A stretch of 28,892 bases of DNA from a virus, in the IMG/VR virus record IMGVR_UViG_3300037041_001387, positions 1-28,892 of that record; one strand, given 5' to 3'. Under the pieces are notes generated by a model that was given only the letters and a program-made list of their open reading frames with translations, was not told the origin of the DNA and made no database searches. The position numbers and the translations under genes are program-made. Positions 3,604 to 28,196 of this stretch are shown piece by piece; positions within the stretch are counted from its first letter, which is position 1; each line of letters opens with the position of its first letter.

Positions 3604-4335
3604 TTAAGGTTGAATAGGTATAAAAAAAGTATGCAAATCGCTTTCGCAACCGTTTGAGTCCTTTATCTTTAAATAAAATATGTAATCTTGAATATTTGTC
3701 GGAGTCCCCGAAATTCCTAACGAGTAACCTCCGAGACCGTCGTCGTAAATAAACAAGGCCAAACCGTCGGGAACGGTCCCCGAAAAATCAACTATCTCAA
3801 AAGGAGGAGAATAAACTCCGTCGCTCAATATAGGTGCATAAGATAACGCCTTTTGATTAAAATAAAATTTGTCAGGAAAATTATCGACGGTTATAATCGG
3901 ACAATCCGGAGGCGGAGGAATAATCGGACAATCTATTTTTGAGGATACCGTAAACGAGAGACCGTATCCGGACGCCGTTGCGGCGAGTTGTCTATACTCG
4001 GGCGTTTTTAATACATTGCTCAAGGAGACGTTGACGTCAAAGTTGAGAGCAAATAAAAAAGTATTTGATAAATCGTCCATTGCTGCAATAATTGCCTCCC
4101 TCTCCTCGTTGGTCGTCTCCGGTCTGTCTTGGTCCCAAAACATTAGGATAAGATTGTGGCGGACGTTGTCTTGTTGGAGGTCATACTCGGAGCGGACCGG
4201 ATATAAATGGATTTGAGGGAAAGTTTTATCATACTCAAGGGACCCGTCCGTCCGTCGGGCGTGAACAAACAAGCCGGTCGGATTGACAAGGTTTGCCGTA
4301 TTTCTTATAATATCAACGAGGTTTTGATAATTCAT
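3604..4335 (-). CDS. Tail-terminator-like protein with C-terminal Ig-like domain (243 aa)
   Basis: Residues 1-132 look like a compact tail-terminator or minor tail protein: an N-terminal helix, FPQIHLYPVRSEYDLQQDNVRHNLILMF strands, and a long helix rich in Glu and Ala. A proline linker follows at 136-145 (CPIIPPPPDC). Residues 150-243 have the hallmarks of the putative-Ig (He_PIG) fold: GTVPDGLAL at about 186-194, then ISGTPT at 208-213 and a closing strand YIFYLKIKDSNGC. Ig-like add-ons on virion proteins often decorate the particle and may bind glycans. The ATG at 4335 lies inside the -1 frame tail of the preceding chaperone gene (overlap to 4313). Confidence 0.6.
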   Translation of the reverse strand: MNYQNLVDIIRNTANLVNPTGLFVHARRTDGSLEYDKTFPQIHLYPVRSEYDLQQDNVRHNLILMFWDQDRPETTNEEREAIIAAMDDLSNTFLFALNFDVNVSLSNVLKTPEYRQLAATASGYGLSFTVSSKIDCPIIPPPPDCPIITVDNFPDKFYFNQKALSYAPILSDGVYSPPFEIVDFSGTVPDGLALFIYDDGLGGYSLGISGTPTNIQDYIFYLKIKDSNGCESDLHTFFIPIQP

Positions 4336-5037
4336 TTTGTCGTTTGTATATCTCGGTTAATTTACTTTCATACTCTCTCCGGTCCTTTTCAATTGATAGG
4401 GTCATAAATATAGTATCTGCCTCCGTTGCAAGTAAAGTCTCATACTTTGTAACGTCTCCCTTACTCAACGAGTAAAGGGTTTTGAAAAATCCGTATTTTT
4501 CAAAGACTCCAACTCCGGCCTCCTCCTCCTCGTCTGTATATTTGCCCTCTGTTAATTGTTTAAAACGCTCATAAAATCGAGATATTTGCTCAAAAAAAAA
4601 TTGACCAATCCGATTGTCTCAAGGATTGACTTTTGATTTATATCTTGTCCCGTATAGGTTTTGACAATTGAGGCTCCGGCGTTGATTGTATCTTTGCCGT
4701 CAAGTTTTGCAATCGCTTGTTTTGCCTCCTCAAGTTTGCTCCAGGGATAATGACCAATATACCAACCGTCGTACTCGCTCGGGACAACGTTTGCCTTTAT
4801 TATATCCTCGTAGTCATACGAGAACGCAATCGCCGGTATGAGTCCAATAATATCGTCGGCCGGTAAGTCATTAATGAGATTATAATCAACTCCAACCAAT
4901 ATCGCAATCCGTCTCTCGATTGAGCCGTTGTCGTCGTTAACGAGTTGGACGTATTTGTCAAAACTAACCTCGGACCAATCCGTCGGGACTTGTTTGATCT
5001 CTCGTTTTTTGTTCGTTATAACCGTAAAAGTTAACAT
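4313..5037 (-). CDS. Tail assembly chaperone, long form made by -1 frameshift (241 aa, predicted)
   Basis: The zero frame starts at ATG 5037 and would stop at 4552, giving 161 aa (MLTFTVITNKKREIK...). Sixteen residues before that end, the codons AAT TTT TTT TTG run through nine consecutive T (plus-strand 4592-4600). A -1 shift there joins an open -1 frame that continues to a TGA at 4313-4315. That frame has an acidic DEEEEAGVG patch and helical ends, but no ATG near its beginning: the only ATG is far downstream, in FMTLSIEK. The fusion has 148 zero-frame plus 93 shifted residues. The arrangement copies the gpG/gpGT tail chaperones of lambda-like phages. The short form is listed separately. 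Confidence 0.7.
4552..5037 (-). CDS. Tail assembly chaperone, short zero-frame form (161 aa)
   Basis: This is the unshifted product. Its N-terminal part (PTDWSEVSFDKYVQLVNDD, then RRIAILVGVDYNLINDLP) looks like the small helical chaperones found before tape measure genes in Bacteroidota phages. No enzyme motif is present. It is the first gene after the terminator that follows terL and has its own promoter-like sequence directly upstream. In lambda the short form greatly exceeds the shifted form, and the same is expected here by analogy. Function is inferred from position, size and the frameshift arrangement. Confidence 0.65.
   Translation of the reverse strand: MLTFTVITNKKREIKQVPTDWSEVSFDKYVQLVNDDNGSIERRIAILVGVDYNLINDLPADDIIGLIPAIAFSYDYEDIIKANVVPSEYDGWYIGHYPWSKLEEAKQAIAKLDGKDTINAGASIVKTYTGQDINQKSILETIGLVNFFLSKYLDFMSVLNN
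4592..4600 (-). other. Predicted -1 ribosomal slippage site (T9 run)
   Basis: On the coding strand the run reads AA-T9-GAG. In the zero frame the seven bases before the slip are T TTT TTT, an ideal X XXY YYZ slippery heptamer. After a one-base backward slip the next codons are TTT GAG CAA ATA, which opens the 93-codon shifted frame. The shifted frame is closed upstream by a TGA (within CCTTGAGAC), so it cannot be an independent gene from an upstream start. No strong downstream pseudoknot was identified by eye. Confidence 0.7.
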
Positions 5038-5074
5038 TGTGCCAAATATAAACGATTGGTTGTTTACTTATCAA
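5038..5074 (-). promoter_or_regulatory. Bacteroidota-type promoter for the tail operon
   Basis: On the - strand TATATTTG (plus 5043-5050) matches the -7 consensus TAnnTTTG exactly, and TTG (plus 5072-5074) lies 21 bases upstream as a -33 box. The ATG of the chaperone gene starts only 6 bases after the last base of the -7 box, so the transcript would have almost no leader. It sits directly after the terL terminator, which fits a fresh start of transcription for the tail genes. Confidence 0.55.
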
Positions 5075-5088
5075 GGTAAGGACTAAAA
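5062..5088 (-). promoter_or_regulatory. Repeated regulatory element, copy A
   Basis: Read on the + strand this is GTTTACTT, a 7-base spacer, then TAAGGACTAAAA. The 12-mer TAAGGACTAAAA recurs exactly upstream of the head protease gene (24629-24640). In both places its inner edge lies exactly 26 bases from the -7-like box of the - strand promoter. It could be an operator or activator site for late transcription. Confidence 0.5.
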
Positions 5089-5120
5089 AAAATCTCCCCA
5101 ATAAAGGAGAGATTTTTTGG
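5085..5120. terminator. Bidirectional intrinsic terminator after terL
   Basis: A 10-bp perfect stem pairs AAAAAATCTC (5087-5096) with GAGATTTTTT (5109-5118). Two more C-G pairs close a small AATAAA loop after one mismatch. On the - strand the hairpin is followed by eight T, and on the + strand the stem itself ends in six T. It separates the packaging genes from the tail operon. The rest of the 5038-5189 gap holds the promoter and the elements listed alongside; no gene is seen there. Confidence 0.8.
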
Positions 5121-5189: not shown

Positions 5190-6497
5190 TTAATATTTTG
5201 CGGCTCGAGTTTTAATCCTTGGAGCAATCTCAAAAAACATACGGAGAGCCAAGGCGTCCGACAAGTCGGGAGACCGTCCGAGGATATCCTTGACTTTATC
5301 CTTGGGGAGGATTGAGAGTTTTTTGTCTTGGTCAACGTTTTGTTGTTTGACTTGGTCCAACTCCTCAATTAATCGCTCCTTGTCCTCCGGACCAATGACC
5401 GGCCAAGAGATTTGATTTGTATTAATATAGTCGGCCAATTTAAAATACGCTTGACTCTTGAGGTTGGTATAATTTTCTCCGTTTAAGGCTCGGGAGTTTG
5501 CAACAAATCCCTTGCAACCGGATAAGAGGTCGACCGCTCCTCCTCCGACTCCGTCCTCGTCGAGTATGACTTGACTCATTGGGACCCTATACTCGGAGGC
5601 GAGTTTTTTAATTAGGTCGGCAACCTCAACAATTGAGGACTTTGCGAGGACCTTATACTCAACGATCTTTAAATTGTCCCAAACGAGGACGACGGTTTTG
5701 TCCTCACCAAAACGGGCGACGTCGCAACTGATATATCTCGAGCCGGTATCTTTAAAATTATTCGTAAATATATCGTTGATTGAGTCAAAGTTTATCAATC
5801 GAGTTGGGTCGTCGTCGTACTCCCAATTGCCAAACAAAAGTCTCTCCTTGCTTATTTTGTCCAACCGTTTAAGATTTTCGATATAATGTTTTGAGATATA
5901 AGGGTTGTCAGTTACAAGGGATTGGATAACCTTTCGATTGGCTCCGAGGGTCCCCTCCCTCCAAGGTTTATAAAATTGAGAGTAAGTCCAATTTTTTGAG
6001 GGGTTACAAGTATACAAGATTTTTGGGACAAGGTCAAACTCGTCCAACTTGTATCGTATCCTTGAGGAGAGTATACCTTTACATTTGTCAGTTATTTGAT
6101 TGGCCTCGTCGACAAAGGCTCCGGTTATCTCCAAGGACCCCAACTCGTCAAAATTTGGGTCGCTCGGATAATTAAATAAATCCTTGAGGAGTATTTGGCT
6201 CCCGTTAAAAAACGAGATAAGGTTGGATTGATAATTTATTTTATAATGGAGGTTAACCTTGACGCCTTGGGCTTTAAAGACGTCGAGCAAAGTATTGAGA
6301 GTTGTCTCCTTTAAAGTCTTTAAAACGGCCCTCCCAATCAACCAACGAGTCTCCGGATACTTGAGAGCGGACGAGGCAATCCAAAGACAACCAAGGGTCG
6401 ACTTGGCTCCTCCAGCTCCGCCGCCAAACAACAACTCGTTGGTCGTTTTATCCTCGAGGATATTAATTGCGGCCGTCTGTTTTTGGGTCAATCTCAT
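5190..6497 (-). CDS. terL: Terminase large subunit (435 aa)
   Basis: This is the ATP-driven packaging motor and headful/cos nuclease. The N-terminal ATPase has Walker A GGGAGGAKST at 25-34 and Walker B AFVDEA at 127-132, followed by a coupling-type segment ILYTCNPS at about 160-167. The C-terminal RNase H-like nuclease shows the first acidic strand YISCDVARFGEDKTVV (Asp259), a second acid in VILDEDGVGGG (Asp313/Asp315) and the final acids in SPDLSDALALRM (Asp411/Asp414). The length is normal for the family. The gene overlaps terS by 35 bases and ends before a strong terminator. Confidence 0.97.
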   Translation of the reverse strand: MRLTQKQTAAINILEDKTTNELLFGGGAGGAKSTLGCLWIASSALKYPETRWLIGRAVLKTLKETTLNTLLDVFKAQGVKVNLHYKINYQSNLISFFNGSQILLKDLFNYPSDPNFDELGSLEITGAFVDEANQITDKCKGILSSRIRYKLDEFDLVPKILYTCNPSKNWTYSQFYKPWREGTLGANRKVIQSLVTDNPYISKHYIENLKRLDKISKERLLFGNWEYDDDPTRLINFDSINDIFTNNFKDTGSRYISCDVARFGEDKTVVLVWDNLKIVEYKVLAKSSIVEVADLIKKLASEYRVPMSQVILDEDGVGGGAVDLLSGCKGFVANSRALNGENYTNLKSQAYFKLADYINTNQISWPVIGPEDKERLIEELDQVKQQNVDQDKKLSILPKDKVKDILGRSPDLSDALALRMFFEIAPRIKTRAAKY

Positions 6498-8671: not shown

Positions 8672-8689
8672 GTTTACTTGTTTAAGGAC
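8672..8689 (-). promoter_or_regulatory. Repeated regulatory element, copy D
   Basis: The + strand reads GTTTACTTGTTTAAGGAC. Copy B before the head protease (24619-24635) is GTTTACTTGTTAAGGAC, identical apart from one extra T. Copy D overlaps the last codons of the methyltransferase at 8674 and lies just upstream of the 119-aa gene at 8654. No good TAnnTTTG box follows it, so if it acts on transcription it may do so as an operator rather than as part of a promoter. Confidence 0.45.
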
Positions 8690-9327
8690 GAGGATAAAAT
8701 CTCAAGGCAAAGGTCCGGCGGCAATTTGCTCCGGTCATAACTCCCTTGTCGTCCTTGGGTCCCCGTCCGACTCCCTCGAGGGGCCGGTTGATGTTTGCAA
8801 TTTTTATTTGATTTATAGCATTTTGACCGAGGTCTCCAACCCTTTGGATTGTAAATTGAGACGAGGTTGTTGGTCCAAATATCGGTAGACTTAAAACGGT
8901 CGTCCCCGTATTTGCAATAATTGACCGTTGCTCGGTCAAACTCTCCTCGGACAATTGGCAATTTGCGGAGTTTGCCGGTTGGATTTTCGACAAACCAAAT
9001 CAAGTCCGGATTGATATCCAAAAAAAAGTTGATTATCTGTAAAGTCTTGGCGACTATCTCAACGCCTTTGATTGCGTTTGCCGACTTTGGGGAGTTGTCT
9101 TTGTTCCAATGATAACCGATTGAGGCAACGCTAAAAAAAGTACAAGGCGGAGAGGCCCAAATTATATCCGGAGTAAACGGGACCAAGGTTGGGTCAAAGT
9201 CTAAAATATCAACCGAGTAATTAATCCCGTCAAAGTTTTGGATATCCGAGGAGTAAACCTCAAATCCGAGACTCTCGGCAACTTTACCAATTGAGCGACT
9301 ACCGGCGAATAATTCGAGGACCCTCAT
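8674..9327 (-). CDS. DNA cytosine-C5 methyltransferase-like protein 2 (217 aa)
   Basis: Motif I is VLELFAGSRSIGKVAESLG at 3-21, the standard SAM-binding start. Motif IV is PDIIWASPPC with catalytic Cys62, and motif VI is WFVENPTGKLR with Glu114. The C-terminal part has a basic, Cys-containing loop (RSKCYKSNKNCKH) and a Gly-rich segment before RSKLPPDLCLEIL, which resembles the closing motif of phage C5 methyltransferases. Its start overlaps the end of the PD-(D/E)XK nuclease gene by 4 bases, so the two are translationally coupled. This suggests protection of phage DNA or a restriction-modification-like pair. Confidence 0.88.
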   Translation of the reverse strand: MRVLELFAGSRSIGKVAESLGFEVYSSDIQNFDGINYSVDILDFDPTLVPFTPDIIWASPPCTFFSVASIGYHWNKDNSPKSANAIKGVEIVAKTLQIINFFLDINPDLIWFVENPTGKLRKLPIVRGEFDRATVNYCKYGDDRFKSTDIWTNNLVSIYNPKGWRPRSKCYKSNKNCKHQPAPRGSRTGTQGRQGSYDRSKLPPDLCLEILSSSLNK

Positions 9328-23181: not shown

Positions 23182-23400
23182 TTATTTTTTTTTTGTTTTG
23201 CTCGTTTTGGTTGGCTCTGTTTTTTTGATCTTTGATTTTTTCTCGTCAATTTTAAGGATAACGGTCCCAAGCAATGAGGGATTTTTTTTGATAAATAACT
23301 CCGCCAATTGGTCCGTTAAATCCTCCGCCTTTATTAAAGACTTTGGACCGTACGGTCTCAACTCGGCTCCCTCTGCAATTATATATTTTGAGGACTCCAT
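23182..23400 (-). CDS. Small head-region protein (72 aa)
   Basis: The gene lies between the protease/scaffold and the capsid; its ATG overlaps the protease stop by one base (TAATG). The N-terminal part is folded (YIIAEGAELRPYGPKSLIKAEDLTDQLAELFIKKNPSLL) and the C-terminus is a lysine-rich tail. It could be a head decoration or assembly helper. No family is recognised. Confidence 0.6.
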   Translation of the reverse strand: MESSKYIIAEGAELRPYGPKSLIKAEDLTDQLAELFIKKNPSLLGTVILKIDEKKSKIKKTEPTKTSKTKKK

Positions 23401-24815: not shown

Positions 24816-27800
24816 TTATCTCAACGTTGCGGCGGCCTTGTTTTGGACAAGGTTTTTGTTGACTCTGTTTATATCCGTTACCTTGGTAACGATTGTTACT
24901 TTTGACAACGCCGTTGCAACCTCTCCGGCCAATAACGAGGCGGAGACTTGGGCCTCGACTCCGGTCCTTATTGCGTTGGCCGTAAATCCTCCGTCCGCAA
25001 ATCCGGACAATCCTAAATTTGATACCTTTCCCAATCTCATACTCTCCAACCTTGCAACCAACTTGGAGCCGGTATCGGTTTTGAGTATCTTATTGGGGAC
25101 AACGTACTCGCCTTTGTGATAAGTATAATCCTTGGACCCCAACGCTCGAGACTCGCTCCTTGGGTCTCCGTCTCCCGTATATCCTCCCTCATAAAACGGA
25201 GGAGGAGGAGGTTGTTGTCCGGCAATAATCCCAACTTGAGTCGCCGTTGTTGCAATAATTATACCGGCTCGAATACCGGAGATAATACCAAGGGACGGGT
25301 CGGGGACCGCAAAATTGGCAATCAACGCCTCGGCTCCCGAGATAATCGCTTGGGCGATTTGGACTCCTTTGTTAAAATTAAAGGCGTCAACCTCGAGTTG
25401 GTATTTTTTCTTTGCCGTATCCTCGTTGAGTTTTTCGATTTGCTTGGCCTTTTGTTTTTCTGTTAAGGTTGTTTTTTCAATTGCCTTAACTTGTGCTTGT
25501 CCTTGAGCCTCAACCTCGGCCGTTGCGTTTGCAAAGGCGGCGTTAACTCCATTGGATAAAGTTGTCAATACTCCGGCAATCTCGTCTGCAACCTCTTTAA
25601 ATTTATCCGCAAAGTCTTTGGGTATAATTGAGAGAGGTTGGGCGTTTATATCCTTGAGTTGTTGCTCCAGCTCTTTGAGAGAGATTTTGGCCTCGTCGAT
25701 TTTATCTTGCTCCTCGGGAGTAATAAAGAGGTCAAGGTTGGCCGACTCCTCGGCAATCCTTATCAACTCTTTTTGTTTGTCGATTTGTATTTGTATCGTT
25801 GCGAGGGCCTTTTTTCTCTCGTCCTTAATCGTTGCGTCAACGTCGAGTTGTCTCAACCTTGCCGTCTTGTCCAACTCAATAACTTGTCGGTCGAGTTTTT
25901 TTTGCTCCTCCTCTTGGCGTTTTTGCTCCTTGAGGTCATTGTATTTGATAACGATATCCAACTCCTTGGACGCCGTCTCCTCGTCAATCTCAATCAAACG
26001 GTCCGCCAATTTTTGTCGGGCGATTTCTTTCTCTGCTTTCTCTTTATCGTTCTCGGCCTTGAGGTTATTAAACTCCTCAATTAACGCCGCCTTTTGTCTC
26101 TCTTGGGACAACTTTAAAGACTCAATCTCCTTTTGCTCTTGGTCGGCCAAGGTCTCGGTCCTCAAGTCTTGGCTCTCTTGTAGTATTTTTTTCTCAAAGG
26201 CGAGGATTGCCTTGAGGTTGTCTTGGGTATTTTTTGCCGTCTTGTTGGTTGCCTTGTCAGTTATCGAGGAGATATTTAATAAATCGACGCCGGTCCCTTT
26301 AATAACCTCGTTGAGGTCGTCTTGGTTTGCCTTGAGGAGCGATTGACTAATCTCCAAGTCTTGATTTATTTTTTTTAACTCCTCCTCATTTTTGGTGATT
26401 GTGTCAAGTACCTCCTTTTGACCTTGTCTAAAACCTTGAGACGCCTTGAGGTTTTTATTAATCTCCTCATATTGCCTTTTGTTGGCCTCAAGTTGTTTAT
26501 TATTTAACTCAAGATTAACTCGCTCCTCGATAATTGGTTTAAGGGCCGCCTCCGAATTTTCAAGGATTATTTTATCCCGTATCTTTGCAATAATACGTTT
26601 ATAACCCTCCTCAACTTGGGCCAAGATTGCGGCCTCGTCGTTGAGGTTTTTTATTGTGGTCCCGTATTGAGAGTTGAGTTTGTCAACAACGGCCTTTTTT
26701 TCGTTATACGTTAGATTGCCCTCCTTTAATCTTTGGGTCAATATTAAATATTGACTAACCTCTTGGGAGGTTGTATCAACAACGTCCTTTTGGATTTTGT
26801 CGAGTCGCTCTTGGTCCTCCTTTAATTTTTTGGCCTCCTTGGAGGTCTCTCCAAAAATATCCTTTAAGGCGTCCGTCTTTGTTGCAAGTAAAACAATACC
26901 GGCGATAATTGCTCCAATACCAATAGCCGACAACGCTCCGGCAAAACTTGTCGTTGCTAAAGTTGCGGCCCTTGTTGCGACCGTTTGGACAACCAAGGCG
27001 GCCGTCTTTAATTTGGTTTGTATTAAGTCAGCAACTCCGATAATTGCTCCCTTTGATTTGGCGATATTTGCCAAGGTTTGAGCAATAGCAACGGCCTTGA
27101 GGGTTTTCTCTTGTATCTCTTGGATTGTTTCGTTTTTACCAAAGGCAATCGTCAACAAACCAATCGAGGAGGTCAAGGCGGACGCCGCCTCAAAGGTATC
27201 CTCAAACCCCTCCTTTGCCGGATTTTTTGGCTCCTTATTTCCAAACTCGTCGACCTTTCCAATTGCCTTGTCAATCTCAAATTGGGTCGCTCTTATCTCG
27301 TCGTTTGTCTTTTTAAACTCCTCCGAGTTGAGGTCCAAAGTTGGAGCCAACTCCTTGAGGTCTCTCAACTTTTGGGTCATACCCTCGATTGTATTTGTAT
27401 ACTTGACCGAGGACTCGGTTGTCCCTTTGATTGTCCCGTCGGCATTAAAAAAACCGATTGACGTTTGAGCGATCTCTTGGTCAAGGTTTGCAATTGCCGT
27501 CTCGTTTGCAATGATTTGTTGATTGACCGCCTCAAATGAGGAGGCCGTCTCGTCAAGAGAGGCGTTAAAATTATTGACTCCCTCGGTCGTTGCGTTTATA
27601 TTGCCTCCAAATCCTCCAACCGAAAAACGTTTTTGCTCCTCTTGATTTTTTTTGAGGGTCTCGGTTTGAGCAATCAACGCCTCCTTTTGTTTTAGCAATG
27701 GAGCCAAAGTCTCCTCCAACGCTCCCTTGTAGTTGCCGACGTTGCGGCGATTATCTCCAACGGCGGACTCGTTTTTTTTCAACTCGTCCGTTATACCCTT

Positions 27801-28196
27801 GATTGTCGACCCCAATTTTTGACCCTCAACCGAGTTGTCTCTCTCCTCCTTGCCGAGGGCGTTGTATTGCTCCGTTAATTTTTTAAGAGCGAGGCGGAGT
27901 TGCTCGTTGCTCCCCTCTTGAGACTTGGAGAGTTTTGTTTGAAACTCAATCTCCTTGTTGTTCTCTGCTATTGATTTTTTCCACGCCTTTTGTTGACGTT
28001 CCAACTCTCCAAGTTGGTCGATAATTTTCTCCCTCTCGGCTTGTCCGGTATTTTTGTCCTTGAGTTTTTTATTTAACTCGTCCGCCTCTGCCTTGACTTT
28101 TTTCAACGCCTTGGTCATTGCGTCGCCGTTTTTCTCTAGGTCGCTTGGGTTTAAGGTTATGGAGATAATAACCTCCTTGTTAATTGAGTCGGCCAT
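24816..28196 (-). CDS. Tape measure protein (1126 aa)
   Basis: The protein sets tail length and helps DNA enter the cell. It has long coiled-coil regions with heptads from the start (LKKVKAEADELNKKLKDKNTG...) through about residue 850. Hydrophobic stretches occur near residues 412-438 (SFAGALSAIGIGAIIAGIVLLA) and 969-999 (IISGIRAGIIIATTATQVGIIAG). It ends with the PPPPPFYEGGYTGDG...HKGEYVVPNKIL segment found near the end of many Bacteroidota tape measures. At about 0.15 nm per residue, the tail would be near 170 nm. Confidence 0.93.
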   Translation of the reverse strand: MADSINKEVIISITLNPSDLEKNGDAMTKALKKVKAEADELNKKLKDKNTGQAEREKIIDQLGELERQQKAWKKSIAENNKEIEFQTKLSKSQEGSNEQLRLALKKLTEQYNALGKEERDNSVEGQKLGSTIKGITDELKKNESAVGDNRRNVGNYKGALEETLAPLLKQKEALIAQTETLKKNQEEQKRFSVGGFGGNINATTEGVNNFNASLDETASSFEAVNQQIIANETAIANLDQEIAQTSIGFFNADGTIKGTTESSVKYTNTIEGMTQKLRDLKELAPTLDLNSEEFKKTNDEIRATQFEIDKAIGKVDEFGNKEPKNPAKEGFEDTFEAASALTSSIGLLTIAFGKNETIQEIQEKTLKAVAIAQTLANIAKSKGAIIGVADLIQTKLKTAALVVQTVATRAATLATTSFAGALSAIGIGAIIAGIVLLATKTDALKDIFGETSKEAKKLKEDQERLDKIQKDVVDTTSQEVSQYLILTQRLKEGNLTYNEKKAVVDKLNSQYGTTIKNLNDEAAILAQVEEGYKRIIAKIRDKIILENSEAALKPIIEERVNLELNNKQLEANKRQYEEINKNLKASQGFRQGQKEVLDTITKNEEELKKINQDLEISQSLLKANQDDLNEVIKGTGVDLLNISSITDKATNKTAKNTQDNLKAILAFEKKILQESQDLRTETLADQEQKEIESLKLSQERQKAALIEEFNNLKAENDKEKAEKEIARQKLADRLIEIDEETASKELDIVIKYNDLKEQKRQEEEQKKLDRQVIELDKTARLRQLDVDATIKDERKKALATIQIQIDKQKELIRIAEESANLDLFITPEEQDKIDEAKISLKELEQQLKDINAQPLSIIPKDFADKFKEVADEIAGVLTTLSNGVNAAFANATAEVEAQGQAQVKAIEKTTLTEKQKAKQIEKLNEDTAKKKYQLEVDAFNFNKGVQIAQAIISGAEALIANFAVPDPSLGIISGIRAGIIIATTATQVGIIAGQQPPPPPFYEGGYTGDGDPRSESRALGSKDYTYHKGEYVVPNKILKTDTGSKLVARLESMRLGKVSNLGLSGFADGGFTANAIRTGVEAQVSASLLAGEVATALSKVTIVTKVTDINRVNKNLVQNKAAATLR

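Follow-up and report, generated by a model that had tools for sequence, protein, structure and literature searches.

A conserved run of nine or ten Ts links two reading frames of a putative tail assembly chaperone gene in phages including those of Bacteroidota

We analyzed a 28,892-nucleotide stretch of DNA (hereafter the window; positions 1 to 28,892 of IMG/VR virus record IMGVR_UViG_3300037041_001387) that represents a small Bacteroidota-type phage. The contig is permuted: its tail block exits the low end and resumes at the high end (1-28892), and because this block continues across the contig ends, the record is probably a nearly complete, circular genome. The gene encoding the terminase large subunit (5190..6497, minus strand; phrog_2, 5.4e-33) precedes a gene that is split between two reading frames, and the tape measure gene (24816..28196, minus strand; phrog_20660, 3e-06) follows downstream across the contig ends. 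An initial annotation of this DNA had placed the split gene about 5.3 kb from the tape measure; our re-measurement, with the contig ends joined, gives a close value of ~5.0 kb, and the corresponding distance is 4.6 kb in the related locus L006 and 5.2 kb in L013. Between the terminase and the split gene lies a terminator-like hairpin with a T8 tract (5085..5118, minus strand), and similar hairpins occur in the close relatives shown. The motif TATATTTG (5043..5050, minus strand), placed 13 nt upstream of the ATG, is similar to the -7 promoter box of Bacteroidota. In the window and its closest relatives, the hairpin is followed by TATATTTG or a similar motif near the ATG, an order that is not universal among distant members; the arrangement looks as if the tail operon had its own Bacteroidota-type promoter and almost no leader. 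Elsewhere in the window, a DNA methyltransferase gene (phrog_757) lies at 8674-9327 on the minus strand, and an A10 tract at 23185-23194, on the coding strand, sits at the 3' end of a 72-aa ORF (23400..23182), just ahead of its stop codon.

The zero-frame ORF of the split gene (5037..4552, minus strand) begins with ATG and encodes a 161-aa putative gpG-like chaperone. Near its end it crosses a T9 run (4600-4592, minus strand), a candidate slippage site read as GTC AAT TTT TTT TTG AGC and containing an in-frame T TTT TTT at 4600-4594; the zero-frame stop follows 37 nt past the run. The window's plus strand has no A run of nine or more other than the A9 at 4592-4600, which makes this T9 unique on the coding (minus) strand. 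Reading in the -1 frame stays open between 4618 and 4316 and ends at a stop codon at 4313-4315 (4313..4618, minus strand); this stretch encodes a putative T-like extension that has homologs and is under purifying selection. A slip on T TTT TTT would join 148 zero-frame codons to 93 -1-frame codons, giving a 241-aa product. Our recount reproduced the coordinates and counts of the initial annotation (161 aa, T9, 93 -1-frame codons) and agreed that the -1 frame lacks a usable start: the window's ORF list holds no ORF of at least 60 aa in this frame from ATG, GTG or TTG. The next gene (4335..3604, minus strand) has its ATG at 4335, before the -1 frame has ended, and this overlap (4313..4335, minus strand) is also found in relatives.

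Similarity searches with either half of the gene collected more than 100 IMG/VR loci, and removal of duplicates left 109 loci, found by protein similarity, in 15 clusters at 60% identity. Every collected locus with two separate frames has them in a -1 offset, with a T run at the junction. All 109 loci carry T9 (85 loci) or T10 (24 loci) plus an open -1 frame, with no run of eight or fewer or of eleven or more. Under synonymous recoding, a run of at least nine would arise with a chance of 0.07-0.65 per cluster; the product over clusters is 10^-10.7 assuming independent clusters, which these are not fully. Identity to the window's extension is 66-96% among the closest relatives and falls to 16-32% among the most distant; the extension bears a conserved G-D motif. 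The cultured Nonlabens phages P12024L and P12024S (Inhavirus), which have a marine Bacteroidota host, show the same gene after the terminase, with T9 and an open -1 frame. One relative, L013 (983-1669), lacks the run; its two halves form a single ORF of 228 aa, preceded by the terminase and followed by tail genes and the tape measure. This natural fusion strongly supports the view that the two halves constitute one protein. The signature TTTTTTTYTAYMAYTTAGG is nearly free of false matches, as 79 of the 80 loci it returned are family members; a scan of genome contigs found no relative. In L010 (1063-1235) and most of L014-L088, the zero frame extends ~50-60 codons past the run, resulting in a long dual-coding overlap.

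The -1 part is real coding sequence, as indicated by an excess of third-position changes and by a low dN/dS: most estimable pairs in the window's clade give 0.05-0.12, and L009/L090 gives 0.35. Past the zero-frame stop, most substitutions within the extension in this clade hit third positions of the -1 frame, and over the 12 codons where the frames overlap the -1 frame is the more constrained of the two. L008 and L009 have a -1-frame stop immediately ahead of the run, so nothing upstream can start the -1 frame in these loci. Given the conservation of this layout, both the analogy with G/GT genes and the idea that one gene would give two products, by a -1-type change of frame at the T run, are well supported.

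The G/GT frameshift is a textbook case of ribosomal recoding in phages. In G/GT-type chaperones, the short form binds the tape measure and the extension binds the major tail protein, and neither is present in the virion. From sequence and structure modeling, the split gene very probably encodes a chaperone of this type, a reading that best accounts for its place after the terminase and, within the tail block, ahead of the tape measure, and for weak profile and fold matches; together with the architecture, these make "tail chaperone" a likely name. As in lambda gpG/gpGT and P2 gpE/E', a short protein and a -1-frame fusion are specified by one gene upstream of the tape measure, a short ORF connects, shortly before it ends, with an overlapping -1 ORF (here the two are conserved), and the extension ends at or overlaps the next gene. 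In contrast to those systems, the run here is 9-10 Ts rather than a 7-nt heptamer (T6G in P2), the gene adjoins the terminase and lies 4.6-5.2 kb before the tape measure rather than directly adjacent to it, and there is no significant sequence match to either system. The window's own protein showed no significant match to any named family. Members of the family gave weak profile matches to Phage_TAC_7 (E 0.16) and to the tail assembly chaperone family phrog_10551 (0.12), and 3 of 22 members matched the "tail protein" family phrog_166 (best 0.0056). An AlphaFold 2 model of the zero-frame protein (pLDDT 85.5) shows a beta hairpin followed by helices and resembles P12024S. Foldseek found a weak match to a "Tail assembly chaperone protein" (A0A8S5V8Z8, E 0.026), and a PDB fold search with the same model gave nothing convincing (best Z 3.8, VIA-align). 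The initial annotation had likened the locus to lambda gpG/gpGT; the two-frame architecture it recognized is conserved, but the chaperone label comes without a significant family match.

Two further candidates were set aside. Flavobacterium phage 6H gp10 matched weakly by fold and lacks T9, and its extension-like ORF lies out of reach of a simple -1 slip at the T6C there. That gene (L125 10048-10927, minus strand) is followed by an unannotated open frame, without T9, that resembles the chaperone extension. In Elizabethkingia phage TCUEAP1, gene 3 is a single ORF with a weak match to the extension (31%, E 0.3) and no more than a possible relative.

We propose that this one gene would yield two proteins in a set ratio: a 161-aa G-like chaperone and, in the smaller share of expression events, a 241-aa GT-like fusion whose C-terminal domain comes from the -1 frame. 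The T9 run would be the switch between the short and fused products: RNA polymerase would stutter there, adding one U (or dropping two), and the resulting fraction of mRNAs would encode the fusion by ordinary translation. We consider it somewhat probable that RNA polymerase slippage makes the fusion. An A/T homopolymer of about nine, conserved as a run, stands at the frame junction, as is characteristic of transcriptional slippage. Slippage by RNA polymerase requires about nine A or T; the bacterial enzyme slips efficiently on nine A/T, and many genomes show selection against such runs from nine upward (PMC5009743; PMC1088944). In this family, run length is constant over three codon phases: AAT or GAT TTT TTT followed by TTG; NTT TTT TTT TNN, with GTT, ATT or CTT followed by any of several TNN codons; and the T10 forms. 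The zero-frame residue after the two phenylalanines is Y, W, C, S, F or L, whose codons are alike in the first T only. The peptide LFFFYN is spelled CTT TTT TTT TTC in 3 loci and TTG TTT TTT TTT in 15, both T10 and never 8 or 12. A change from TTT to TTC at the last Phe codon would be silent in both frames and would leave U UUU UUC; TTC occurs there in none of 68 distinct sequences, compared with 24% at the other Phe codons of these genes. When either T or C was allowed at this site, a scan returned 79 family members, 74 with T and 5 with C, and all five Cs follow T10; the pattern forces a run of at least nine for the T class, so that the C class alone is informative. The +1 frame stops a median of 2 codons past the run, versus 6 elsewhere in the gene. 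In a pseudoknot-free model, predicted downstream RNA structure was no stronger than these genes show in general (mean z -0.20, control -0.28), and an SD-like motif was present in only 2 of the 15 cluster sequences tested for stimulators. Polymerase slippage is slightly favored by the retention of 9-10 Ts over phases and spellings, the lack of a TTC break and the lack of downstream structure.

The main rival is a ribosomal mechanism, programmed -1 frameshifting on U UUU UUU like that of lambda G/GT and P2 E/E', with the 9-10 Ts reflecting coding constraint; we regard this as possible, if somewhat doubtful. This was the slip proposed in the initial annotation, and the in-frame heptamer on which it relied is indeed present in every context listed. 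The strictly kept wobble Ts fit a heptamer with Z=U, and the flanking Ts are mostly second positions of hydrophobic codons in one frame or the other, so that coding constraint could yield nine; since nearly all flanking Ts are constrained in one of the two frames, silent flanking sites do not separate polymerase from ribosome. A fusion wanted at a low level is typical of ribosomal sites, and to our knowledge all tested tail chaperone frameshifts are ribosomal. Slippage by tRNA-Phe (GAA) should be weaker on UUC, and this might account for the missing TTC. The P2 E/E' site shifts at T6G (GGTTTTTTG) and is annotated as a -1 translational frameshift; six Ts suffice for the ribosome there, yet no member of this family has fewer than nine, and run length is kept through the phase changes. 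A stimulator signal was likewise not seen. A downstream structure or upstream SD-like stimulator is common but not obligatory for -1 programmed ribosomal frameshifting, and lambda also lacks clear stimulators. With the run always 9 or 10 and no stimulator detected, polymerase slippage accounts for the data at least as well as the ribosome does.

Three other explanations have little claim on the data. T9 runs are presumably mutable in DNA, so that replication slippage (phase variation) might leave some genomes with an in-frame run and the fusion only; this is very improbable, as the 109 assembled loci and 79 scan loci are all out of frame equally, T9 and T10 alike, and include no in-frame variant that keeps the run. 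Homopolymers are prone to sequencing error, and a miscounted run could hide a true sequence that fuses the frames. We consider such an error exceedingly improbable, given that the same T count recurs in unrelated metagenomes and in cultured P12024L/S, and that selection acts on the zero frame up to the run and on the -1 frame past it. The second frame might also be a separate gene with its own start. It is annotated that way in P12024L/S, where the halves are two hypothetical proteins (the second being P12024L_41 and P12024S_39), and PHROGs lists them as two separate families of unknown function (phrog_32199 and phrog_38404). The initial annotation had expected gene callers to miss the second half; no frameshift is annotated in these phages, but the half itself is called as a short hypothetical gene. 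Separate-gene status is nevertheless highly improbable, since homology extends right to the T run, -1-frame stops stand immediately ahead of it in L008 and L009, and L013 holds both halves in one ORF.

Precedents for RNA polymerase slippage at such a run include Shigella mxiE and spa13, Thermus dnaX and IS elements. Like the split gene, these place a homopolymer of about nine at the frame junction and have a conserved alternative frame; they differ in being bacterial or IS genes with tested slippage on A or T, whereas slippage here is predicted. In spa13, slippage gives 25-30% extended product (PMC5009743). The literature searched, which included few subscription papers, has reviews of both processes but yielded no account of a tail chaperone gene that uses polymerase slippage.

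Judged by its sequence, the split gene appears to be a real, widely conserved recoded tail gene, and recognizing it joins two "unknown" protein families into one gene for annotators. We see about an even chance that a broad aquatic phage lineage, Bacteroidota phages included, sets its tail-chaperone ratio by polymerase slippage on T9 or T10. A large family that keeps 9-10 Ts instead of a plain heptamer would either extend polymerase slippage to phage tail assembly or provide a natural set for comparing the two mechanisms. If polymerase slippage is indeed responsible, a control step in tail assembly would have shifted from the ribosome to the polymerase.
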